From Pilaira anomala (lineage: Eukaryota; Mucoromycota; Mucoromycetes; Mucorales; Mucoraceae), in contig JAIXMQ010000012.1 of the NCBI GenBank assembly GCA_025716855.1, forward strand, positions 496,001 to 560,000: 64,000 nt of DNA, read 5' to 3'. Under the pieces are notes generated by a model, which searched no databases, was not told the DNA's origin, and saw only the letters and a program-made list of their open reading frames with translations. A program made the position numbers and the translations under genes. This document shows positions 2,121 to 47,273 of the stretch, piece after piece; position 1 is the first letter of the stretch; every line of letters starts with the position of its first letter.

Positions 2121-3607
2121 TTAAAAGATAGTTCCATCACTCTATATAAATAATTTAAAAACAATTAGTTAAAATGATATCATTGCGTATTCTATTTTAC
2201 TTTTTACCTTGATTGAAATAGGTGGACCACCATCCTTGGGTCTCAATTTAGCAGCAATTTCTCTTCCAGCAACCCAAGTACCACCTTCTAAAATTTGAGC
2301 CAAGTCTAACTTTTGACCTAGTTTCTCCTCGAGTTCCTTCTTGATGATGTCCAAATAAATCACGGTCAATGCACGCCATTCAACAATAACTGGATCAGAG
2401 CCTTCAAATTCAGGCAACTCATCGTTCTTCAATTTACCACGAGCCTCTTCATTTGGCTTTAATTTTAAAAGACCATAGTCTACCAAGAGACCACCATTTC
2501 TATATTCTGGTAATCCAGTCATTAACTCGACGCCTTCTATAATGATACCCATGGAGCTTTCAATGGCTTCAATTAAGGAATACGTAAGCCATTGAGATAG
2601 TTTGTGAAAAGGTACCAAGTTTTCATAGTTGCCTAAATCAGTAAGACTAGGACAAGGCCAAACGTCACCAAGTTGAATACCATTGATTTGAACACGAGCA
2701 GGCCACATCTCCCCAAGACTCATAACAGCTTCCCAAAGCTTTTCAATACGTACCGTCTTTGCATGTTTTTCATCATGTTCAACCGAATCCAACAAATAAT
2801 CTAATATTTAAATTGTTAGTATGTAGAAAAAAAAAATAAAAACCTGAATTTATTAAATGTACAAGCTTACCGACAAGGTTACCAGGTCTACGTGGTTCTT
2901 CATTAATGGAAGGAAAGTAAGTAGATTGATTATCCAAAGCCTTGGATAAACTTTTCAAAAGATGGGAACGACCTTCTAAACCTACCATTGGATTTTCCTC
3001 ATTGATTTGAAAACCTTCGGTCATGCGTTGAACCGTTACTTGTTCCAATCCCCGAGCTTTTTTTTTTTAACACAAACAAAATTTTAATTAGTCTATAATA
3101 ATAATAATAAAAAAGTTTCTCACGCTTTATTTTTTTTTTACCATCAACGCGATCAGGAACTTCTTTTGAGCTTGAAAAGTAACCGGCTTTAAACATATCA
3201 AAGGAAGCCAAGGCAAGACCTTCAGATCTACCTACATACTCACCAGTAGAGGACTTGTATTTCCATTTTTGACCTGCACCAGCATCTACTAAGACCGAGA
3301 CAATGACTAAATCAATTAAACGACGTGTTTGTTCTACAGCATCCAGACCTTGATTTTCCCACCCTTCTTTGAGTTCTTCCATTTGTTTAGGGTCAAAATG
3401 ACGAAGTCTGGAATGAGGAGGGATTTTATCCAAGTGAGGGTATCTACGCGTAGTGGTAGATGCAACGTGTTCAACAATAGCAGGTAAAGCGCTCTCGTCT
3501 ACATCGAAACAAGTAAGCTCTCCACGTTTACCTTTTTCATATACCTGAGTACATCTTTCTCGAATAGAAGGCAATGTACGTAAATAATCTTGTGGGAATA
3601 CTGTCAT
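2121..3607 (-). CDS. URC4: URC4/URG3-type uracil catabolism protein (DUF1688)
   Basis: Member of the DUF1688 family, required in the reductive-independent (URC) pyrimidine degradation route of yeasts; its chemistry is unsettled. Exons 3607..3142, 3056..2871, 2800..2208 and a 21-nt terminal exon 2141..2121, totalling 421 aa, the usual family length. Family-typical blocks are VLVDAGAGQKWKY, RSEGLALASFDMFKAGYFS and, at the end, PPISIK joined to SDGTIF. The final microexon is needed: reading through its intron gives a tail unlike the family, while splicing at 2207/2142 yields the expected ending. Intron 2 has a good branch site (ctaac). Family assignment is from recognition of these blocks; the pathway role is inferred from yeast homologues. 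Confidence 0.85.
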
Positions 3608-32953: not shown

Positions 32954-35504
32954 TTAAATTCGAATAGAGCCAGTAGGTTCTCTTTTAAAAGTATTGACAA
33001 CAAGAGTCCATTTAAACAAGACGGTTGTGATCAATTCATATAAACCAACCACGAGAAGAATAGGAGAGTAAATGAGGTACCAAAGCACTTGATGTGTCTT
33101 TTCAACCCACTCAATGGATGCTTGACGTTTAAACACAACACGTGCAGTCCATTGAACGAACCCAAAAAAGAAATCAATAGGTACACTAGGAATAAATACA
33201 CCTAATCTTGGCTTCACGCCTAAACAACGTCGAATCGCCCAATCTTTCTTGACTGACTCAATACGACCTTGAATATCCAAAATTGTACTCAAGAAGGAAG
33301 CAGTTAAAAGTGCTCCAAGAATGATCACAGTCAAGAACAAGTAAACGGCTAATAAGAAACCTGCAATCGTTTTTTGATATGAGATGGTACTACCGATAGC
33401 AGGTGCATGAAGTGCACCAAATACTAAATAACGTAACATAGTAAAAGGTCGGATATCATCAAATTGTAATGCTGCAAGTGCTACCCAGAACCCAAGAAGG
33501 ATAAATAACGCAATGGAAAATACCCAGAGACTGTTCACAAAGCATTGATATAAGATAAAACTTGTCTTTGCAATACTCCAACAAAGATCCGTAGCCGATA
33601 CAAAGAGACGGAAGAACATGAGCGGTGTAGATAATACGACCAAAGCATAAGATAATGTCAAGAAATAAGCTTCTACTTCCACATTATAAATCACAATCAA
33701 GGCAAAGATACGGATGACGCATGCACTTAATAATAAGGAAGCGGTTAAAAGAGATACATAAGATGATACCTTTCGGAGATACGCAATAGGTTGTGTGAAT
33801 AAAGTGTAATACTCTAAAAGGAAATCAAATGAGACAAATGTAAAGAAAACGTATTCAAAAGCAAATGGAATATCTGATCGGTATTCTTGGTTAGTGACTG
33901 TGGCAAGATGTAACGAGAGATAGACCAACATGGTAAAGAATCCAATCAATGTTTGGTATCGGATACTAGCACAGCGTGCCAAGAAATCCTTCATAACCTC
34001 AGTGATAACATACCACCCGAAATTTTTAGGTTCTTGTTGTTGTTGTTGAGGTGGTTTTTCTAACCAAATGTTACTAGGATGGTTCGGGTCTTGACGCCAG
34101 TTAGGTCCTGATTTCCAAAGATCCTATAAATATATTGAGTTAAACTACCGATTTTTTTTTTTATTATTTGGTTTAAGTTACCTCAATCACAAGTTGAACT
34201 CTAGCATCACTTAAAATCAATTGACTGTTATTCTCAACAGCCCATTCCAAAGCTATAATACATTGTTTAGTTTAATAAAGTTTTTTGTTTTTTTGTTTTT
34301 TTTTTCACTTACCAGACTTTCCATGCATCCATTTGTTGGTAAGCATTTCATATAAAACAACATGAGAAACAGACTTATCTTGTACTTTCAAACCAAAATT
34401 CAAAGTAGAAAGTGCTAAGGTTTGTAAGGAGACATCTGTTTCAGTATTGAAACCGGATGATTGCCGACGTTCGTGTAACAATGCCAAAACGGCACAGACG
34501 GAAGCATTTTTAGCGACTTCAAAAACACTTTCGGCAGAAGAAGGAATAGGTTTATAAACTTCTTCTTGTTTCTTGACTTGTTGAATATAAGCTGCACCAC
34601 CATTTGTATGATGATGATATTGATTTTTATTATTATTACTAGGTGCATTAGCAACAGGAATAGTGGTGGTGGTAGTAGTAGTAACTGATGTTGCTGCTGG
34701 TGCTGGTGGTGGTGTAGTAGCAACTAAACTAGAAGAAGAATTATTGTTACTATTGGTAGCATACCCATGTTTCTCTTTCCAATTGCTTGTTGCAAATCTT
34801 AATGCGTCTACAGCAAAATCACGTTTTCTTAATGTCTTTTTTCCATCGGTTGATTTCTTTTTACCATGATCAATAGACCAATCAGTTAATTTTCTTTTCA
34901 AAGCAAATCTTACACTATCCTCATCACTATCGCTATCACTATCACTACTAGAACTAGAACTATTATTTAAATGACTACGAAGTACTAAATTTTCAATCTT
35001 GTAAGGCAAAGGAGGAGGAACTTGAGGTTGGTCTTCTTCTTTTGATTGATTTTGAAATTGTTGTTGAAGTTGTTGAAGATATAATTCTTGCTTTTGTTGA
35101 TACAATTGTTCTTGTTCTTGAATTTGTTCTTTTATCTTGCGTTTCTTTTCATCATGCATAGCGCGTGCTTGTTGATTTTGTTTAATTTCTGTAAAAACAA
35201 GAATATCTTGAATCTTCTCTGTCAACTGTTCTGTTGGAATTGTGGGTTGACCTGCTGCAATCACTGTTTCATATTGACGCAATGTCGTGGTAGTTAATCC
35301 ACCTCCATAAATTAACCCCGTGGTTTGAACTATCTCTTCTTCTTGTTGTTGTTGTTGTTGTTGCTCAATATTAATCACCGTTTGCTTCTTGGATATATCC
35401 CGAGCAGCATAACTAGATGCAGACGTGTCTAAAAGACGCGTATTCTCGGTTGTATTTACCTGGTTACTACTTGGAACAGGTGAAGAAGGCGTACTATCCG
35501 ACAT
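32954..35504 (-). CDS. Large polytopic membrane protein, putative cation channel (TRP/YVC1-like)
   Basis: Exons 35504..34313, 34252..34182 and 34123..32954; 810 aa. The N-terminal 290 residues are disordered: poly-Q, long Gln/Glu coiled coil (about 105-150), Ser/Asp stretch, poly-Thr. Around residue 310 a folded cytosolic part begins (SAESVFEVAKNASVCAVLALLHERR). About seven hydrophobic helices span roughly residues 470-720, including FTMLRYLVFGALHAP as a possible pore helix and a long final helix (VYLFLTVIILGALLTASFLS) running into a charged stretch (DIQGRIESVKKDWAIRR), the arrangement seen in TRP-type channels such as vacuolar Yvc1. No selectivity signature is certain, so the channel call is an inference; a membrane protein of unknown function is the alternative. 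Confidence 0.6.
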
Positions 35505-35969
35505 AATATTTTTTTTTAAAAAAAAAAAAGAATAGTATAAATAGAAAAGAAAAGAAGAAAAAGAAACTGTAAAAAATCCTTTTATAAGATGAACACTAAA
35601 CTTTAAAAAATGTCGTGCAACCTGAAAAAAGAAGAGGCGTTTGTTTAGAATTATTTAGCCCGGGTTTACAGATAGAAAAGGATAATTTGATATTTTTAAA
35701 CTGTTTCTGCTTCTTAATTGCTATTAAAAAAAAAAAAAAAACTTATTTAACGTGTGAATAAAATGTTGGGTTTATTTGTTTATCATCTTGATGCAACTTT
35801 AATCCAATCATAAACTCCATTTTTTTCGACTATTCAACTCCTCCCTCATTGCAAAACACGAAACAATTGTTGATATTATCATAAAAATATGTGGAGATGG
35901 GGAATATATATGATATTGCAACTTATTAGATGTAATAAGTACTGCCGCTTCTTATATTTTTTTGAACGC

Positions 35970-38597
35970 GTTTACTGGCCTTAACCAGTTTTATTGAGAG
36001 CGAGAAACCTTTTTCAAGCAATCAAATCACCCAAAAAAAGTTAGAAAAGATGCTTCCTTTTTCTTTACCAGAGGTGTGTATATAGGAGATTTCTTACGGG
36101 CGGATGATATTTTGTAGCCAATCAAATCATCTAAAAAAGTGAAAAAATACTTGAGTGCCAATCTTTCGACCAAAGTTTAGATCAGCAACGACTTTAAAGC
36201 GTCAATATTTTATATTTCCATATCATATCACTTCAAATATTCTAACTCACTACATAGAATTTTATTTTATTACTAAATATTTATAATTGTAATTATCATT
36301 TGTAAATGATAGGTGATAATAGGAATCACCAATTAAAGTTTTTCTCGAAAAAAAGGATGAGGTCGCGTTAAAATAAAAGTATTACCTATGTTAAATCAAA
36401 ATCCGTCGTTAAATTCATAAAAAGCCTTATTTCCTCTCACATTAACTCAAATGAACACCTTTTTTAAAGGTTCAAAGAAGAAGATTCAAATCGACTTCTA
36501 GGTATAAATAACAGCCTAAAAAAATTCGGAATCATCTTAGATAAGTCGATTTCACCAAACTCTGCTCCAGAAAGACAAATGTAATTAGTTTAATAAAATA
36601 TATCTTTTTAAATTCTAAAAGTCTTCCTGTGACTGAGTGTTTTTGTTGCTGAACTAAAGGTACCCATATAAAAATCCCGCTAGGTCCCGACCTTTTAAAT
36701 TTTTTAAGATATTTAAATGTGGATATATGTTGGGGTTATAGGAATTTTAGAGCAAAATTATTGAATGGATTATAATACAGAATTTGACGCTCTTTCGAAT
36801 GGTGTAAAAATCAAAGTAGAATAATTATAAAGATTAAAGATTAATGTTAAAAAGTCAAATTACGGTTTTTGTTAGGGCAGGTATATTTTTCATATCTAAA
36901 CTTATGAATCCAAATACATGAAAAAATGCGTCTTTAAATTCTGCATTGACTATATATCATGTTGTATATTAGAGTAATTGATTTAGGATGACTTTAATTT
37001 GACAAGAAAGAAAATTTCGTCCATATCTCGATTTTTTTTTCCATTTTAGGGGTAAAAAACGGGGCGTCCGTAGGGGGTTGTAGTGTATCTAGTCTACTTC
37101 CATAGGGTGTGTAACGTTTCACACTGCTTAAAGTCCTATAGGCACCCCGTTTGATTTTCACCCCTAAAATAAGCGCGCCTCATATAAACTACACACACCA
37201 CTTTAGTATCTACACACACCACATATTTAAGCCTAGAAAACCTTTCACGTCAAAGTAAAGTCCTTCAATATTAACTATTTTATTAAACAATACTATATCC
37301 AGAAAATTCTAAATTTATATGGGCAGATGATTGTATATTAAGATGTATCTTTTTATATGTAAAAAATATACTTTTTCTAACAAAAACTGTTTTCCTTACA
37401 TGCACTACAAATGGAGAGTGCATGTAGCATGGTCTATATACACCTCGTTTTTCAGTCCCAGAAATCAAAATTTAGACAAAAAATACCTTCTTGTCAAAGT
37501 AACGTTCCTCTAAATCAGCTATTTAATTAAACAATATGATATACAGAAAGTGTAGAATTTGAAGGCGCATCTTTCTATATAATTTGATTTATATTATTGG
37601 AAACTGAAAATATACTTGCCCTAATAAAAACTTTATTTCGTTTTCTGACAATAACCATTAATATTTGTAATTATTTTATTTTGATTTTTACATCATTCGA
37701 AAGAGTGCAAAATTCTGTATTTACCGTTAAAAGAACAAGCGTTAAACCCATTTTAATGTAAAGATATATCTATCTTTCTGATTTTTGAAAAAATCCATAG
37801 GGGGGGACTAGCAAATTTTTCTAAAAAATGGAATTTTTTTCACAGCTTAAAAAAAAATAAAAATTAGAAATGTAGATATATCTTTGTATTTAAATGGTTT
37901 TAAAGTTTAGCTTTTTATTGATGTCTAAGGTAAAATTTTATGCTCTTTATAATGATGTAAAAACCAAAACAGACTAATTATAAATATTAATAGCTTGTAT
38001 GAGAAAGTATAGGTTCTATTAGGGCATGTATATTTTTTATATACAAGATAACAAATCTAAATGCATAGAAATCTTAGTTTTTAAATTCTACATCTTTGGA
38101 ATATAACATTGTCTAACAAAATATGTCTGTATCCTGATTTGGTTTTTTTCCTGTTTTTGGACCTAAAAATTGAGATTTGGGTCCAAATTTCTTTCTTTTC
38201 AGATTAAAGTCTTTTATTTCACCTATTTTATTATAGAATATGATATACAGTCAATGCAGAATTTGAAGGCGCATCTTTCTATTGATTCAGAATTGTTATT
38301 TTTTATATAGAAAATATACTTGCTCTAACTAAAACTGCATATCGTTTTTTCATAATACCTATTAATATTTGTTACAATTTTACTTTGATTTTTACCTCAT
38401 TAAAAAGAGCGTCAAATTCTACATATATCCTTAAAAAGCCAAGCTTTAAAACCTTTTTAATGTAAAGATGTATGGATATTTCTGAATCTTGTAAAAATCC
38501 AAAGGTCGGGACCTGCTGATTTTTGCCTAAAAATACACTTTTTTCCCCTTTTCCGATGATTTGATTGGCTCAAAAAGACTAATTAAGGCCAGTAAAC
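35970..38597. mobile_element. Large non-coding fold-back element, copy A
   Basis: About 2.6 kb bounded by inverted sequences: gtttactggccttaa at 35970-35984 and its exact reverse complement at 38583-38597. Inside these, a caatcaaatcat motif on the left (36018 and again 36118) is matched on the right by ccgatgatttgattggctca at 38553-38572. Internally it is built from alternating copies of one module of about 350 bp: + at about 36690-37030, partial - at about 37210-37390, - at about 37480-37800, + at about 37860-38140, - at about 38180-38540. No transposase or other ORF of note. No target-site duplication evident. Likely a non-autonomous DNA transposon or fold-back element; origin uncertain. 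Confidence 0.75.
37043..37170. repeat. GC-rich mini inverted repeat nested in element A
   Basis: 128 bp starting attttaggggt...cggggcg and ending with the near reverse complement (caccccg...acccctaaaat). The centre holds gtgtgtaacgtttcacac, itself a hairpin around aacgtt. It differs in base composition from the surrounding module and could be a small nested MITE or the conserved loop of the larger palindrome. A copy lies at 41434-41563. Confidence 0.7.
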
Positions 38598-39351
38598 ACA
38601 GATAGTATAGAGCAAAGCTTTACTGTCGTAATAGAATGGCAGTATAAAAAGGTCTCTTTCTTTAAAATTTTTTTTTTACCATAAATTAAAAGTGAAAGAG
38701 GCAGATTTAACTATATCAAGAATTATATTACCTTGGCATATTGACCACCAAAAGTTTTAATGCAATTGTATAGTTAGTTAAACTGATATAGCTGCTTTAT
38801 TTTTGCTTAAGCAAAATGGCATATCCTCAAGGATAAAGAAAATTAACAATTATAGCAATGTACATAACTAGTGAATGGTGTTTATAAAAATCTAGTGAAT
38901 GATATTGAAAGATTTATATGTATATATATATATATATTACAAATGAACTCGAAAAACACTCTGAAATAAAATGGCAAAATGTGGTTCATTGTACATTTTT
39001 TTTAGGAACTAATGATAACTAACGATATTGGAAGAAAATTCCGTTCAAAGACAAAACAAATGATTTATGATTATACACAGAATAAAAATACAGAATAAAA
39101 AAATGAAATCTAGTAACATAAATAGTTTCAACACAAGAACTAATTTGTGTTTAATTGAAAATATAAGAAAAGAAAAAGAGTGATATTAATACACAAAGGA
39201 TTAAATTAACAATTTTTTATAAATAAGCAAGTTATACTGTATAGTAAAATCACGGATGACTTTTATCCGGATTTATAAAAAGTATAACAAGGCACATTGT
39301 CACGTGAATAAGGTTTTTTATAACTTTGCATGAAATACACCATTACATCAA

Positions 39352-39452
39352 TTTTTTTTTCACATGGCATACAAGCAGGTTTTTTTCTCATACGCCAGAC
39401 AAACAGGGGGGTTTTTTTCTCACGTACGCCAGACAAACAGGGGGGGGGGTCA
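39352..39452 (+). repeat. Short tandem repeat, unit about 35 bp
   Basis: Two to two-and-a-half copies of a unit containing acgccagacaaacagg followed by a G-run and a T-run with ctca. Copies end in G-runs of growing length (2, 6 and 10). Confidence 0.75.
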
Positions 39453-39827
39453 TTATAAATAACCTTTTTTTTTATTTTGTTTTTTTCTTTCACTTTCTTC
39501 TTTTTATATATATTCCAAAATGAATCTTCCTTCCTTACCGCTACATTTTTTAATCTCTTCTTTTGCCACACTCCTTGCCTAGAGAAGACAATGTTCCAAG
39601 GGAAAAAAGACCTGCATAAAACATATTGTTATCAATGGTAAGTCTAATAATTTTATCAAAAAATAAATGATTCATTTTGTCTAATAAATCTCAAATAGAA
39701 AATGATCCTTTTTTTTTTAACAACATAGGTTGTTCAGCAACTATATTTACAAGCAATAAGGTATGCAAATAAGATCAGAGCACAAAATGTCAGTACTATA
39801 ACTAATCAGTTTTGTTTAGAAGTACTC

Positions 39828-40425
39828 TGAATACCTTGAGAGAATCTATTGGGATTGCATCGCACCTTGATAGTAAGATTCCTAGAATCTATCCCAAGTG
39901 AAAGTGCTGGAAAGTATGAGTTGCATCGCACTCGTATAGACCTTCATTATTAGCGCTGGTTTTTCATCAAGATTATGATGCTCTATTACTTGTTTGAAAT
40001 CTGAATACCTTGAGGGATTCTATTGGGATTGCATCGCACCTTGATAGTAAGATTCCTAGAATCTATCCCAAGTGAAAGTGTTGGAAAATATGAGTTGCAT
40101 CGCACTCGTATGGACCTTCATTATTAGCGCTGGTTTTTCATCAAGATTATGATGCTCTGCTACTTGTTTGAAATCTGAATACCTTGAGGGATTCTATTGG
40201 GATTGCATCGCGTCTTGATAGTAAGATTCCTGGAATCTGTCCCAAGTGAAAGTGCTGGAAAGTATGAGTTGCATCGCACTCGTATAGACCTTCATTATTA
40301 GCGCTGGTTTTTCATCAAGATTGTTATGCTCTGCTACTTGTTTGAAATCTGAATACCTTGAGGGATTCTACTGGGATTGCATCGCACCTTAATAGTAATA
40401 TTCTTGGAATTAGCCCCAAGTCCTG
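39828..40425 (+). repeat. 174-bp tandem repeat array
   Basis: Repeat starts (tgaataccttgag) fall at 39828, 40002, 40176 and 40350, an exact 174-bp period. There are three full copies and a fourth that degenerates after about 75 bp. Copies differ at only a few positions. Each unit contains ttgcatcgcac twice (first copy about 39855-39865 and 39921-39931); the inverted segments attctattggga and gaatctatccca can pair. No ORF. Confidence 0.92.
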
Positions 40426-40507
40426 GTTTTACCCGCAAAATCTGTACTTTATCGGTCCTAGTTTTACCTGCAAATTAGATATTTCATGACATTATTTTAC
40501 CTGCAAA
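40423..40507 (+). repeat. Degenerate tandem repeat abutting the 174-bp array
   Basis: Three copies of a unit of about 33-35 bp centred on ttttacctgcaaat (starts about 40427, 40462, 40495), directly after the degenerate end of the 174-bp array. Confidence 0.7.
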
Positions 40508-41019
40508 TCTGCTAGATCTCAGTAGCTATTGGCTTTTCAATTGTATATTGCTTCATATCATTGGTCTTTATCTTATTTCAAAATGACGTTCATAATAAAG
40601 GCGTTATTGCTATTTGGTATAATATACCACTTTAAATAGCTTTTTATATATTGATTTTATTTAAAAATCGATCTTTATTCATTGATTTTTTTTTAAAAAA
40701 AAAAAACTATTGGCATACTGCCATATTATTACTTAAAACAGATGCATCATCTGAACTTCTTTCCTAAAAGAGATAAAAAGTCTTTGGGTGTGATAGCCTA
40801 AATACTCCCTGTCGGGGGAAGAAATCAGTGATAACTGTTCGGGAAGGTTTATTGTTGTTGTTATTGCTACTGCTATTGCTGTTGAAAAGCGATAGACTTA
40901 ACAGAGCCAATTGTTAGGGAAGAGCAGATGTCATGAGAGCTAAAGCCCTGTAAACTTTCAATCAATCTCAAAAAAAAAAAAAAAAAAAGTTTTTTTTCTT
41001 TGTTACAGCGAAAAAAAAA

Positions 41020-43528
41020 TGAGCCAATCAAATCATCGGAAAAAGGGGAAAAAGTGAATTTTTATGTGAAAATCAGCAGGTCCCGACCTTTGGATTTTTC
41101 AAGTGTTTTAAATGTGGATATATCTCGGATTATAAGAATTTTAGAGCAAAGATATTGAATGGTTTCTAATATAAATTTGACGCTCTTTCGAATGGTGTAA
41201 AAATCAAAGTAGAGTAATTATAAAATTAATGTTTATTGTGAAAAGTCAAATTACGGTTTTTTTTAGGGCAGGTATATTTTTCTTATCTAAAGTTATGAAT
41301 CCAAATACATGAAAAAATGCGTCTTTAAATTCTGCATTGACTGTATATCATGTTGTATATTAGAATAATTGATTTAAGATGACTTTAATTTGACAAGAAA
41401 GAAAATTTTGTCCATATCTCGATTTTTTTTTTCATTTTAGGGGTAAAAAACGGGGCGTCCATAGGGGGGTGTAGTGTATCTAGTCTACTTTCATAGTGGT
41501 GTGTAACGTTTCACACTGCTTAAAGTCCTATGGGCACCCCGTTTGTTTTTTTCCTTTAAAAATGTAAAGATATTGACAAAATTTTCTTTCTTGTCAAATT
41601 AAAGTCATCTTAAATCAAGTATTCTAATATACAATGTGATATACAGTCGATGCAAATTTGATGGACATCTGTTTATGGATTTAAAATGATATGTCTAGAA
41701 GCATAAAATATACTTGCCCTAAACAAAGACTGTAAATTCGACTTTCTTAAAAATACAATAATAGCCATTAATCTTTATAATTACTTTACTTTGATTTTTA
41801 CTTCATTCAAATTTTATACTAGAAACTATTCAATAGCTTTCCTCTAAAAGCTTTATAATACCAACATATATTATCCACATTTATGTAAACATTCAAAAAA
41901 ATCAAAAAAGCTCGGGAAACAGTTTTTGCTAGAGAAAGTATATTTTTTATATATATAAAATATATCTTTGTATGAAGATATCTGCCCATCTAAAGTTAAA
42001 ATTTTCTGGATATAATATTGTATAATATAATGGTTAGTATTGAAGGAATTTACTTTGACATGAAAGATTTCTAGGGCTTAAAATTTAAGCTGTGTTTAGT
42101 TAATTTAGAGTGGTGACTCACCCACCAATAAGCGCGCCTCATATAAACTACACACACCACATATTTAAGCCCAGAAAACCTTTCATGTCAAAGTAAAGTC
42201 CTTCAATATTAACTATTTTATTATACAATACTATATCCAGAAAATTCTAAATTTATATGGGCAGATGATTGTATATAAAGATGTATTTTTTTATATGTAA
42301 AAAATATACTTTTTCTAACAAAAACTGTTTTCCTTACATGCACTACAAATGGAGAGTGCATGTAGCATGGTCTACATACACCTCGTTTTTCAGTCCCAGA
42401 AACCTAAATTTTGACAAAAAATACCTTCTTGTCAAAGTAGAATCCCTCTATATCAACTATTTTATTAAACAATATGATATACAGAAAGTGTAGAATTTGA
42501 AGGCGCATCTTTCTAAATAATTCGATTTATATTATTAAAAACAGAAAATATACTTGCCCTAATAAAAACTTTATTTCGTTTTCTGACAATAACCATTAAT
42601 ATTTGTAATTATTTTATTTTGATTTTTACATCATTCGAAAGAGTGCAAAATTCTGTATTTACCGTTAAAAGAACAAGCGTTAAACCCATTTTAATGTAAA
42701 GATATATCTATCTTTCTGATTTTTGAAAAAATCCATAGGGGGGGACTAGCAAATTTTTCTAAAAAATGGAATTTTTTTCACAGCTTAAAAAAAAATAAAA
42801 ATTAGAAAAGTAGATATATCTTTGTATTTAAATGGTTTTAAAGTTTAGCTTTTTATTGATGTCTAAGGTAAAATTTGATGCTCTTTCTAATGATGTAAAA
42901 ATCAAAGTAACATAATTAGAAAGTTTAATAGTCATTGCGAGAAAGCACAGCTTCTATTAGGACATGTATATTTTTTATATACAAGATAATAAATCTAAAT
43001 GCATATAAATCTTAGTTTTTAAATTCTACATCTTTGGAATATAACATTGTCTAACAAAATACGTCTGTATCCTGATTTGGTTTTTTTCCTGTTTTTGGAC
43101 CTAAAAATTGAGATTTGGGTCCAAATTTCTTTCTTTTCAAATTAAAGTCTTTTATCTCACCTATTCTATTTCACTATATAATATACAATCGATGCAGAAT
43201 TTGAAGGCGCATCTTTCTATTGATTTAGAATTGTTATTTTTTATGTAGAAAATATACTTGCTCTAACAAAAACTGTATAACGTTTTTTCATAATACCTAT
43301 AAATATTTGTTATTATTTTACTTTGATTTTTACATCATTGAAAAGAGCGTCAAATTCTACATATATCCTTAAATAGCCAAGCTTCAAAACCTTTTTAATG
43401 TAAAGATGTATGGATATTTCTGAATCTTGTAAAAATCCATAGGGGGGGACTGGCTTATTTTTGCCTAAAAATACACTTTTTCCCCCTTTTCCGATGATTT
43501 GATTGGCTCAAAAAAGTTTTTCGATACA
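41020..43528. mobile_element. Large non-coding fold-back element, copy B
   Basis: About 2.5 kb in the same orientation as copy A and nearly identical to it over most of its length. Terminal inverted repeats: tgagccaatcaaatcatcgg at 41020-41039 and its reverse complement at 43491-43510, with similarity continuing inward (gtgaaaatcagcaggtccc against a matching right-end segment) and weakly outward. Module order: + (about 41100-41430), - (about 41565-41920), partial + (about 41930-42070), partial - (about 42170-42330), - (about 42410-42740), + (about 42810-43090), - (about 43120-43470). The second and third of these, roughly 530 bp, are absent from copy A. Flanked by A-rich DNA, so target-site duplication cannot be judged. 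No coding capacity. Confidence 0.8.
41434..41563. repeat. GC-rich mini inverted repeat nested in element B
   Basis: Copy of the nested repeat at 37043-37170: same gggtaaaaaacggggcgtcc left end, same gtgtgtaacgtttcacac centre; the right end has decayed (cctttaaaaatg). Confidence 0.65.
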
Positions 43529-43529
43529 A

Positions 43530-45692
43530 CAACAAAAAAAAAAAAAAAAAAAAAAAAAAGACTTGGCTGTAGTACCTTCCTTTTTTTTATTAAATGAACT
43601 AAATAAGACGAATTGCCATGTACCTCAGGATAAGGGCTTTACTTCCAGAATGTGATGATAGTTTGAAAAGGGCTCGGTTTAACTGGGTGATTTTGGAGGT
43701 AAAAAAGTATATGGATGATGGCAAATCGAAGTGACACGGAGAAGTTTGATTTTTTTTCCCCAAAACCAAACCGTATTTTTGTGTAGTTAATTATCAGATT
43801 TTTTTTTTTTTTAATGATAGGTTTCAGATAAACCATGGGAGAGTAGTAATTTTCGATTATTTATACACAAGATATTAATGACACAATTCGATTAGTTACT
43901 AAATTATATTATTCTCAAACAACATCAAATTAATAATCCTGCAAACTTTTTTTTTTCTTTATGAGAGGGGTCTCATACTATAATAAATTTGGTGGTTTCA
44001 AAATTCAAGAAAAGTTTATTAACCTCCTTTTTTTTTTTTTGCTTCCATTCTTTCAACCAAAGAACCCTTTTACCTCTAGAGTAAATAAATGTTTTTCTTC
44101 AAGTCAAGTACTTTTTAATTTGATAGAAACAAAAGCTTTTTTTATTTGCCAAAAATTGTTTATAATTGCCCATATAGATTCAGTTAGTTTATAAACTTCC
44201 TCCCCTTCTGGATCTCGGTTTATATTTTATCAATTGGAGAAGTTTCATGGAAGAATTTAAGACATTCGATCAGGGGAGCAAAAGAAAAAAAAAATATCAA
44301 CATTTTTTTTTCCAAGCATCATTCAGATCGATAGATAATCCTCTTTCTTTAGACGATTGCTAGGATATTATTTAATTACTCTTCTCCGCCGCGAATTAAA
44401 ATACATTAAAAAAGCATATTACACATTTTTCGTTCATAACACAAATACTGGTTATAAGGAAATAATCAAGCTGATCTCATGATCTTATTTATGAATTGAG
44501 TTTTCCCGTATTATTATCATATGAAAGATATTGTATCCATGGCATTCCTTTTTACTCTAAAGAAATTTGTATAGTGATGATCGTCCTTTTGCTTAAAAAA
44601 CTGTACTTAAAATTTTCGGGGTAGGAGGAGGAGGAGGAGGAGGAGAAAAGGTAGGATTTTTATGACCGTGAGAGTGTACGTATGGCCTAAGTTAATTCAA
44701 TATTACTAAACCAAGCACAATATGATAAGTAAACCTTTGATAGGAAAGATAAGGCCCTGAATTTAACTTTTTTTTTTTTTTTTTTTTTCCTGTGTGAATA
44801 AAAAAGCCCATATCTTTGCATCTATTTTTTTTTTTTTTTTTCTCGGAGAAAAAGTTTTAGCAATACTAACTATGTATATCATTAGACTATTTGGTAGATC
44901 AAACAATTAAAAACGTCTTGTAAATAAATTATACAATTTGTATGACAAAATCAGTCCTAAGCCTAATTTGCAATTACAGAAAAAAAAAAAAAAAGGTTAA
45001 AAAAAACACACAAAATGACTCATTTTTTTAAACAGAAAAGAAGAAACTTTTTCTCGAAAAAAATGAGGACAGCACAAAATCACAACATATTTTTTTTTTT
45101 TTTTTTTTACAAATTGGTTCATTGGTGCCCCCCTTTTCTTTTTGAAATACGATTGGTCCATCAGTACAAAAGAAAAACGACGGTTCTGACGTAACTTTTT
45201 GTATTTATAACTCGGGAGAAAATATATCATTTTTCCTGACAAGATCTCTTGTTTTTTTTTTACAATAGTTAGAAACGAGATCTTTTTTAAAGAAAGTCTT
45301 TTTTTTTTTTTTTTTTTGGTTATTATTTACAATTCGATAAGATAATAAATATATATATATATATATAAATAAACATTATGATTACCTTATCCGTGCCCGT
45401 GTGCTGTATGTATTACAAAACGTCATTGACTCGGTACAAGGTTCGCCCAAGTTTTATTAAGTGACGTTTTTAATGAGAGTGGAAAAAGGGCGGGGTATAC
45501 ATTCGAATCTAAAAAAAATAATTAAGTATCCGCAGACTGTTTGCATTTGAAACAAGAGAGAAAAAAAAAAAAAAAAAAAGAAAAAACGTATAAATATAAA
45601 GGACCTTATATATCACCTACAATTTTCTTTTTCTCTCTTTCTTCAATTCCCCTCCTCTATTTACAAAAAAAAAAAAAAACAGTTACACACAA
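43530..45692. other. A+T-rich intergenic DNA, kinase upstream region
   Basis: 2.1 kb with poly-A/T tracts, a (GGA)n stretch at about 44624-44645, a (TA)n tract near 45350-45366 and a pyrimidine-rich stretch (45620-45660) just before the kinase start. No gene or module copy recognised. Confidence 0.55.
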
Positions 45693-47273
45693 ATGTCTAC
45701 AGTATTAATGAAACCCACCTTAACAAAAAGTATTTCAGAAGACCATCGACTATCCAACCCAATCGATTCTACTACACCACCACTCATGACATCCATTTCA
45801 ACCGACACAAAAGCAATTCCAATCCAAAAAGAACTCCCTCCTTCTCGACTCAGTTCTTTCTTCTCAAACAACGCTACCTCCAGATCAAACATTAAACCAC
45901 AACCTTCTTCTTCCTCTACTTCAGAAAACAGTTTAAAGAGCGCCCATAGTTTCTCTTCCACCAGTTTACCTAGCTCTGCTGACGATCCTCATAAACCACA
46001 TAAATTCAGTAAATCAATTGGTAGCTTAATCAGTAGTCCTGCATCTTGGACACGAAAACACCTTCATAAGCATCACCATAGCAACAACGGATCAGGCCAT
46101 GCTTCACCTTCTGTCAATGTACCTAAATTAAATGAAAAATATGGTGATTATGTAAAACCCAATAAGAAGGCCAGTACAAAGACATCAGGTGCAACCAATA
46201 AGAATAATATAGGAAGTGGAGCCACTGCCGTAATACGTCTTGTGCAATCCAAAGATCGTATCTTGGCCGTAAAAGAATTCAGAAAACGAGAAAAGACTGA
46301 AGATGAAAAGGAGTATTTGAAACGAATGCATAATGAATACTGTATTAGTAAATCCGTGAGTGGACATCCAAATGTAGTAGAAACGATGGATTTAGTTGTA
46401 GATGAACATGATCGATGGTGTACCGTGATGGAATACGTAAGTATATACATATATATCTCTTTTTTTTTTTATTTATTTAGATCAAACAAACTAAAAATAC
46501 TATTTTTTTAGTGTGATGGCGGTGATTTATTCAGTTTACTCTCTGAAAAACCAAATATGCCAATTGAAGAAAGCAGCTGCTTATTCAAACAATTGATGCT
46601 AGGTATTCAACACCTTCACGAACTAGGTATCGCACATCGCGACATTAAGCCCGAAAACTTAATCTTGACCAAATCCGGTACATTAAAAATCGCAGATTTT
46701 GGTGTAGCCGATGTAGTTCAAACCTGTTTTGAAAAAGAATCTCATGTATGTCATAAATGGTGTGGCTCAGAACCCTTTTGGTCACCTGAACTCTGGAAAC
46801 TTCGAAATGTTCAGGATGGCTATAATGGTCAAGCCTTGGATATTTGGTCGGCTGCTGTGACCTATTTCTGTATTCGATTTCAACAGTTGCCGTTTGAAGC
46901 CGCTTTTTATCATGGTAGAGGCGCAATTACGGCCGTGTTGGGTTCGGGCAATGATGATGGTAAACTGAACAATGGATCGCCTGCTGCCATTGCGGCTGCT
47001 GCTTCGGATGGTGGTGATAAAGATTTTGGCATCTATGTTGAACAAAGAAAGAAGTTGGATCAAGTGGGTTCTTATGATCTTTGGGATAATTTTGGCACTC
47101 AGGTGAAAGGATTAACTGAACAAGAAAAGGAGTGTTTGGCTGGTATGTTGGATCCTAACCCAGAAACTCGGTGGACTGCAACTCAAGTATTAGAATCTGA
47201 ATGGATGAAATCCATTGAAGTATGTGTAAATGGTGTATTACCAAATGGGTCAAGACATTATCATACTTTATAA
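45693..47273 (+). CDS. Ser/Thr protein kinase, HAL4/HRK1/NPR1-like fungal family
   Basis: Exons 45693..46436 and 46512..47273; 501 aa. The N-terminal 170 residues are Ser/Pro-rich and disordered. The kinase domain starts with glycine loop [15 protein letters not shown]-type Lys in ILAVKEF, hinge VMEYCDGGDLF across the intron, catalytic loop [20 protein letters not shown] and the activation-segment end [11 protein letters not shown]. These features, including a Cys-containing [12 protein letters not shown] segment, fit the fungus-specific HAL/NPR group that regulates plasma-membrane transporters (K+ and nutrient uptake, H+-ATPase). A Gly/Ala-rich insert (about 375-400) lies in the C-lobe. The gene lies convergent with a K+ channel gene, 83 bp away, but this may be chance. 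Confidence 0.85.

Follow-up and report, generated by a model that had tools for sequence, protein, structure and literature searches.

A probable decayed foldback-type element with arms of alternately inverted modules in Pilaira anomala, probably of a family linked to Mutator-like transposases

Long composite inverted ends are known from Foldback, Galileo, Tetris, Tm1 and the Mutator-like elements (MULEs) carrying multiple terminal inverted repeats (TIRs). Tm1, a Mutator/Foldback element of root-knot nematodes, is described as having composite arms and two 7-bp motifs that differ between its ends (PMC3169594), and the repeats of Tetris are reported to seed satellite-like arrays as well (PMC4079207). 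Here we analyse a locus within a 64-kb stretch of the Pilaira anomala genome (contig JAIXMQ010000012.1, positions 496,001 to 560,000; 'the window'), where two blocks of repeated modules, A and B, enclose a non-coding interior. An initial annotation had taken the blocks for two near-identical elements resembling no described family, an appraisal that overlooked the general design of the systems just named. We conclude that the locus is probably a decayed, non-autonomous foldback-type DNA transposon belonging to a MULE-linked family, with A and B as its two arms.

Each arm is a nested palindrome of one ~350-bp module whose copies alternate in orientation. The whole window was scanned on both strands with a 33-mer core, allowing up to 11 mismatches, and nine matches were obtained (Table 1). 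They coincide in position and strand with the nine cores of the initial annotation; no further match was found in the 64-kb window and none in five Markov-1 simulated 64-kb sequences used as control. Four recognisable cores lie in A and five in B, where five to seven modules per element had been counted. Self-comparison of the locus displayed the alternating inverted modules together with palindromes at several scales. B as a whole is a single imperfect 2.5-kb palindrome (40990-43542 against its own reverse complement, 61% over 2,682 columns), and smaller nested palindromes were detected at 41914-42333 (80%), 41081-41917 (72%) and 37860-38490 (67%). Folded as single-strand DNA, the segment 41914-42333 reached -121 kcal/mol compared to -30.6 +/- 3.6 for its shuffled versions, 25 s.d. 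better (z = -25). The arms are thus long, inverted, internally repetitive and capable of forming hairpins, as in foldback elements.

Because each arm is a nested palindrome, each end resembles the inverted repeat of the other, yet A and B align directly: 37210-38576 matches 42148-43514 at 94.5% over 1,367 bp. The left halves are less alike (36666-37545 against 41064-41877, 75% with gaps). In addition, a ~590-bp central block of B (about 41562-42147) is absent from A, and the left ~0.6 kb of A has no counterpart in B. Near-identity of the two blocks therefore holds for the 1,367-bp stretch and fails for these parts, while their description as directly repeated, non-coding fold-back structures made of alternately inverted modules was borne out.

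The arms belong to a family dispersed over the genome assembly (34.25 Mb, 225 contigs; contigs and loci are designated below by C and L numbers). A search with one 351-bp module gave at least 45 genome matches (best 40 of 341 candidates scored). Family structure was deduced from a sample of 78 loci, about 290 kb in all, comprising 20 stretches that surround the higher-ranking matches among the 45 and then smaller pieces, many of them picked by their end pattern. An inner terminus, TGAGCCAATCAAATCATCGGAAAA, was found at 166 sites in the genome with at most two mismatches (80 + 86), compared to 0 for the reversed control. Outward of it extends a common outer domain of roughly 250 bp, which ends near TTAAACATCACCCACCTGGATTTCC; this outer end was present at 44 sites with at most three mismatches, again with 0 in the reversed control. 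The eight bases outside TTAAAC, the start of the shared end part, are conserved in two forms, GAGAGCCA-like at 19 of 55 ends and GGTAAAAA-like at 14, the other 22 being neither (several are plainly chance matches). These 55 are fuzzy matches in the fetched loci, counted after removal of L001-L008, L068-L071, L023 (which is the L060 site), the mirror-image end of L025 and any match closer than 40 bases to the edge of its locus. Beyond the eight bases, information falls to 0.01-0.51 bit; as the two classes were chosen on the eight bases, information inside them is inflated and only the drop outside is informative. Both ends could be scored in five copies. In four of these (L016, L032, L033, L073) the two motifs occur together, one per end; the right end of the fifth, L067, is clear and its left end degenerate.

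Dispersed copies with defined termini, typical of foldback elements, hence exist in the family, the outer termini of the window copy itself being unrecognisable. The copies are mosaics in which palindrome halves (L, R) and flanking segments (s, l) are joined in several orders. In size they form a series, from L032 (~450 bp, MITE-sized, little but ends) through the palindromes of L073 (~0.9 kb) and L033 (2.4 kb) to the gene-bearing L067. Modules are about 60-80% alike when compared with one another within the locus, i.e. roughly 20-40% diverged, while whole copies of B are alike at 92-95%. This difference points to old modules and a later amplification of the arms.

The initial annotation had noted that no transposase is present. 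This is true of the window copy. It does not apply to the family, in which gene pieces lie between or beside the same arms at L067, C101 and L028. At L067 (C135), gene pieces are placed between two mutually inverted arms (83.5% over 364 bp, 79.6% over 338 bp), and family ends lie outside both arms, the left one degenerate. Compared to Pfam, these pieces scored 30.5 bits for MULE, above the cut-off of 27.6. A transposase inside the element, as in MULEs, is thereby documented for the family through this copy. The family gene is split into several open pieces, introns and frame breaks not being separated: one piece is the MULE catalytic part and others are weaker, FAR1-like and SWIM-like. Five genome matches, itself included, were obtained with the MULE-domain fragment, one of them at L067; a Pfam search of eight reading frames of the fetched loci gave no match.

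Gene and arm are also joined elsewhere. L028 and L018, one on C101 and the other on C13, are 96% identical over 3.9 kb across the gene end and the arm. On C101, arm sequence is found on both sides of the gene, on one side ~3.5 kb past the gene stretch common to C57, whose gene (L066) is about 95% identical to that of C101. The segments s and l that border the window interior occur in several arrangements. Among 24 sequences, a direct s-l junction is present in 13 (L012, which retains just the final ~50 bp of s, would be the fourteenth), gene 3'-side sequence precedes l in four (gene pieces in L018 and L028, a short remnant in L011 and L020), and the 1.5-kb interior of the window type precedes l in two, the window and L029. 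L018, L020 and L029 each display two of these states at two places. Neighbourhood alone is weak evidence, because unrelated MULE genes are also found near arms at C189 and C51; the weight of the MULE link rests on L067 and on the gene-arm junction common to L018 and L028. Judged from these sequences, the Mutator (MULE) superfamily is the most likely affiliation of the family.

Another MULE type was considered as the partner of the family and rejected, its TIR being unrelated. It is present at L062 (C163:101800-107300) and L063 (C204:437400-442900), 89.5% identical over 3.8 kb, and carries a 188-bp TIR (arms 99% identical in L062) that itself holds repeats of ATTTGGACTGATTTTT.

In the window, the order is A, s, a 1.5-kb non-coding interior, l and B. 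We regard A and B as likelier to be the arms of one element of ~7.7 kb than two elements, because s and l, beside their inner ends, themselves belong to the family and a scan found no family terminus at the right end of A or the left end of B. A mechanism may be proposed. Gene-bearing members would make a Mutator-type transposase, as their architecture suggests; this enzyme would recognise, and putatively bind, the family ends and could move in trans any element bounded by them, non-coding copies of the window type included. Alternating modules would arise inside an arm by inverted duplication, an event to which hairpin-forming ends are prone, and would multiply and flip through recombination or template switching at the hairpins. 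A broader scenario, which we advance tentatively and consider rather unlikely, is that of a Mucorales Mutator-type lineage whose ends turned into nested palindromes, kilobases long, of interchangeable modules in alternately flipped orientation. Together with s and l, the arms would then multiply, tandemise and exchange parts largely without the transposase gene, so that the arm would be the unit of spread.

Attribution of the locus to a single MULE-linked element calls for caution, as no outer terminus was located for the window copy and MULE genes of unrelated types lie near arms; a series of observations speaks against it. No match to the terminal motif was found within 35500-44500 with up to nine mismatches, nor did a gapped search detect one around the right end of this copy. 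At the DNA level, the interior matches nothing in the gene-bearing L066 and only segment l in L067; the first 0.48 kb of the interior matches C101 at a place away from the gene. In L067, FAR1 (21.9 bits, Pfam cut-off 28.1) and SWIM (10.5 bits, E = 0.48, cut-off 19.6) both remained below threshold. At C57 (L066) no arm is present within the 9 kb fetched although the gene is there, and the MULE fragments near arms at C189 (L064) and C51 (L024) are of other types. Ends were too degenerate to score at L037, L072/L040 and L074/L075 despite both end regions having been fetched, and by eye both ends of L037 are GAGA-like, contrary to the rule of one motif of each kind. Inspection of the five complete copies for target-site duplications gave one 6-bp match (L033), with the others scoring no better than mismatched flank pairs, and no clear 8-11-bp match. 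Finally, six family members share an extra repeated flank beyond the supposed terminus.

Two points, that no recognisable outer terminus in the window brackets A and B together and that nothing ties the middle of the interior to the gene, count in favour of a serious rival of the single element. Here, A and B would be distinct non-autonomous foldback elements, both from this family, brought together by neighbouring insertions or tandem duplication, with at least the middle of the intervening DNA unrelated. Further in its favour, solo arms with outer ends on both sides are known (L033, 2.4 kb), arm-s-l-arm runs occur at L015, L018, L022 and L026, and L029 has the same interior next to a differently built left arm. 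Against two elements, the right end of A and the left end of B both lack a terminal motif. Moreover, s and l are repeated at many family loci, at two of which l comes after MULE-type gene pieces and at two others after remnants. We therefore consider two elements possible, though the less probable of the two arrangements.

The frequent head-to-tail junction of s and l, in the 13 of 24 sequences mentioned above, raises the question of whether the arms are instead satellite-like arrays or recombination products, for instance of circular DNA, whose modules were amplified by unequal exchange. Some loci do exceed one unit length with variable break points, such as L014, where the ends overlap by 72 bp. 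As the main mode, circular permutation or array growth is disfavoured despite these junctions: single copies are dispersed, with defined ends and unrelated flanks, and L032 is a short copy that consists of little more than ends. This explanation is unlikely. L014 deserves mention in its own right, since between positions 3599 and 7117 its segments follow a circularly permuted order in which the two ends overlap as a 72-bp direct repeat, an arrangement that simple cut-and-paste does not explain.

Equally improbable, or slightly more so, is membership in a different superfamily, such as one of TA-target Tc1/mariner type, with the MULE gene as a chance neighbour. A TA duplication could hide in the TTAAAC that starts the shared end part, no 9-10-bp duplication was found, and the unrelated MULE types at C189 and C51 show that such neighbours occur. 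Conservation nevertheless extends past TTAAAC for another 8 bp, in either of two forms, and arms flank the gene on both sides in L067 and at C101 and on one side in L028.

An assembly artefact can be dismissed for the window, in spite of mirror-image sequence around arms near the ends of contigs C51, C6 and C176 that resembles assembler fold-back, since the divergence between modules is beyond any assembler error and many copies lie inside contigs with differing flanks. Those three loci (L024, L025 and L027, respectively) are mirrored around arms over several kb, likely by assembler fold-back and possibly as real inverted duplications; at L024 and L025, the mirrored stretches carry identical reading frames on both sides.

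The limits and contents of the window element are collected in Table 1. The limits first given to the blocks were too tight on the right, where the outer domain is kept and 87% homology to L021 runs to 43706 (by eye only, it may reach about 43761), and also wrong inward, the DNA between A and B consisting of repeated family sequence at either end. The left outer domain is partly kept, with homology to L010 from 36083 and a match to L034, by eye, for the stretch from 35970. Only one reading frame of at least 75 aa (121 aa) is present in 35900-43800. The initial view that this is neither a standard MITE nor an LTR element stands: at ~7.7 kb it is far from a short (<~600 bp) non-coding TIR element, and instead of an LTR-flanked reverse-transcriptase interior it has palindromic arms and this lone frame. 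The 174-bp tandem repeat of the interior has fewer units in L029 (7708-8129) than the 3.4 of the window, so that unit number differs between copies. Long reading frames border the locus, at 32954-34123 and 34305-35654 on the minus strand and at 45600-46511 and 46512-47273 on the plus strand. A ferric-reductase-like protein encoded in the window matched Thamnidium elegans best among named species, at 77% identity, and one other sequence at 97%; the remaining named matches came mostly from Mucorales, in keeping with a host of this fungal order. A search of 35000-46000 for known RNA families gave nothing above gathering score, with two weak chance matches.

Table 1. Features of the foldback locus (window positions).
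Feature	Position	Strand	Basis
Whole composite foldback element (probable), arm A - interior - arm B	35970..43706	.	Homology to L010 (from 36083) and L021 (to 43706)
Arm A, four module cores alternating, without the ~590-bp central block of B	35970..38576	+	Self-comparison, core scan
Core 1 of A	36786..36818	+	Core scan
Core 2 of A	37677..37709	-	Core scan
Core 3 of A	37939..37971	+	Core scan
Core 4 of A	38381..38413	-	Core scan
Segment s, from arm A into interior; repeated at other family loci	38570..39238	+	Sequence comparison
Non-coding interior, longest frame 121 aa, common to L029; position holds MULE-type gene 3'-side sequence at 4 other loci	39248..40790	.	
Tandem repeat, 174-bp unit x 3.4, within interior	39826..40410	.	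Also in L029
Segment l, inner flank of arm B; after MULE-type gene pieces in L018 and L028, after short 3'-flank remnant in L011 and L020	40793..41020	+	
Arm B, imperfect palindrome, five module cores	41020..43515	+	Self-comparison, core scan
Core 1 of B	41179..41211	+	Core scan
Core 2 of B	41787..41819	-	Core scan
Central hairpin of B, 80% self-complementary, fold z = -25	41914..42333	.	Self-comparison, folding
Core 3 of B	42615..42647	-	Core scan
Core 4 of B	42877..42909	+	Core scan
Core 5 of B	43319..43351	-	Core scan
Outer domain beside B, homologous to outer domain of L021 and L016; terminal motif unrecognisable	43516..43706	-	Sequence homology

Two other repeats accompany the family. The flank outside the left end of L067 is present at nine genomic places, six of which adjoin an inner terminus among the matches listed (C135:195000-195287, C135:257600, C79:168425, C24:419236, C24:347355 and C24:452958). 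It also occurs at C135:119623, and two weaker, more diverged copies on C193 are without a terminus among the matches listed. Compared at five loci, this flank extends up to at least 1.1 kb and includes a GC-richer conserved stretch, GGGCTTACCACGGGGAGGTACACTACTTAAGCCCC. A distinct repeat of ~1.1 kb starting with TGTAACGACTGCC, by eye perhaps a solo LTR, lies in or beside family arms at L067 (7197-8310), L037 and L021.

The natural series leading from L032 through L073 and L033 to L067 offers material for following how foldback arms may have grown out of a simple transposon end. Long hairpin arms in a fungus are also an obvious source of dsRNA and a preferred place for inversions and for errors of assembly, and both consequences are testable.

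How does the family compare with described systems, as far as the published accounts cited here go? The MULE-Mucorales group likewise has a MULE transposase in Mucoromycota, there with a SWIM finger (the SWIM-like piece here is below cut-off); it is listed with a 40-bp TIR and a 10-bp duplication instead of kilobase arms (PMC6446971). Modular arms with internal repeats, rearranged forms and non-autonomous copies recall Tetris of Drosophila virilis (PMC4079207) and Galileo (PMC3573991, PMC4168063). The repeats of Tetris are, however, given as ~220 bp and tandem, whereas the modules here alternate in orientation, and Galileo is assigned to the P superfamily, unlike the MULE-like gene linked to our arms. 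Plant MULEs with multiple long TIRs likewise have extra internal TIR copies and are mostly non-autonomous; theirs are described as mostly tandem, in contrast to nested palindromes of flipped modules, and target-site duplications are reported for all 61 tomato elements (PMC3310237).

Tm1, in the published description (PMC3169594), has variable-length composite inverted ends, mostly non-coding copies and one type with a MULE-like transposase, as here, and two different short motifs, generally one per end, an arrangement seen in four of our five scored copies with motifs of other sequence. It differs in that its arms are tandem ~14-bp repeats, compared to ~350-bp alternately inverted modules in arms of up to ~2.5 kb, and in that its elements measure 0.17-2.5 kb, 45 of 53 with 8-10-bp duplications, none of which was found in our five copies. 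Since its modules are ~350 bp long and inverted rather than tandem ~14-bp repeats, the present family is not a Tm1 member. Among the titles and abstract openings listed by a literature search, with few subscription papers, there was no fungal foldback MULE; in these listings the architecture is described for plants and animals. The foldback or multi-TIR MULE design is thus already known, and the long arms of alternately flipped modules in P. anomala are probably an unusual variant of it.

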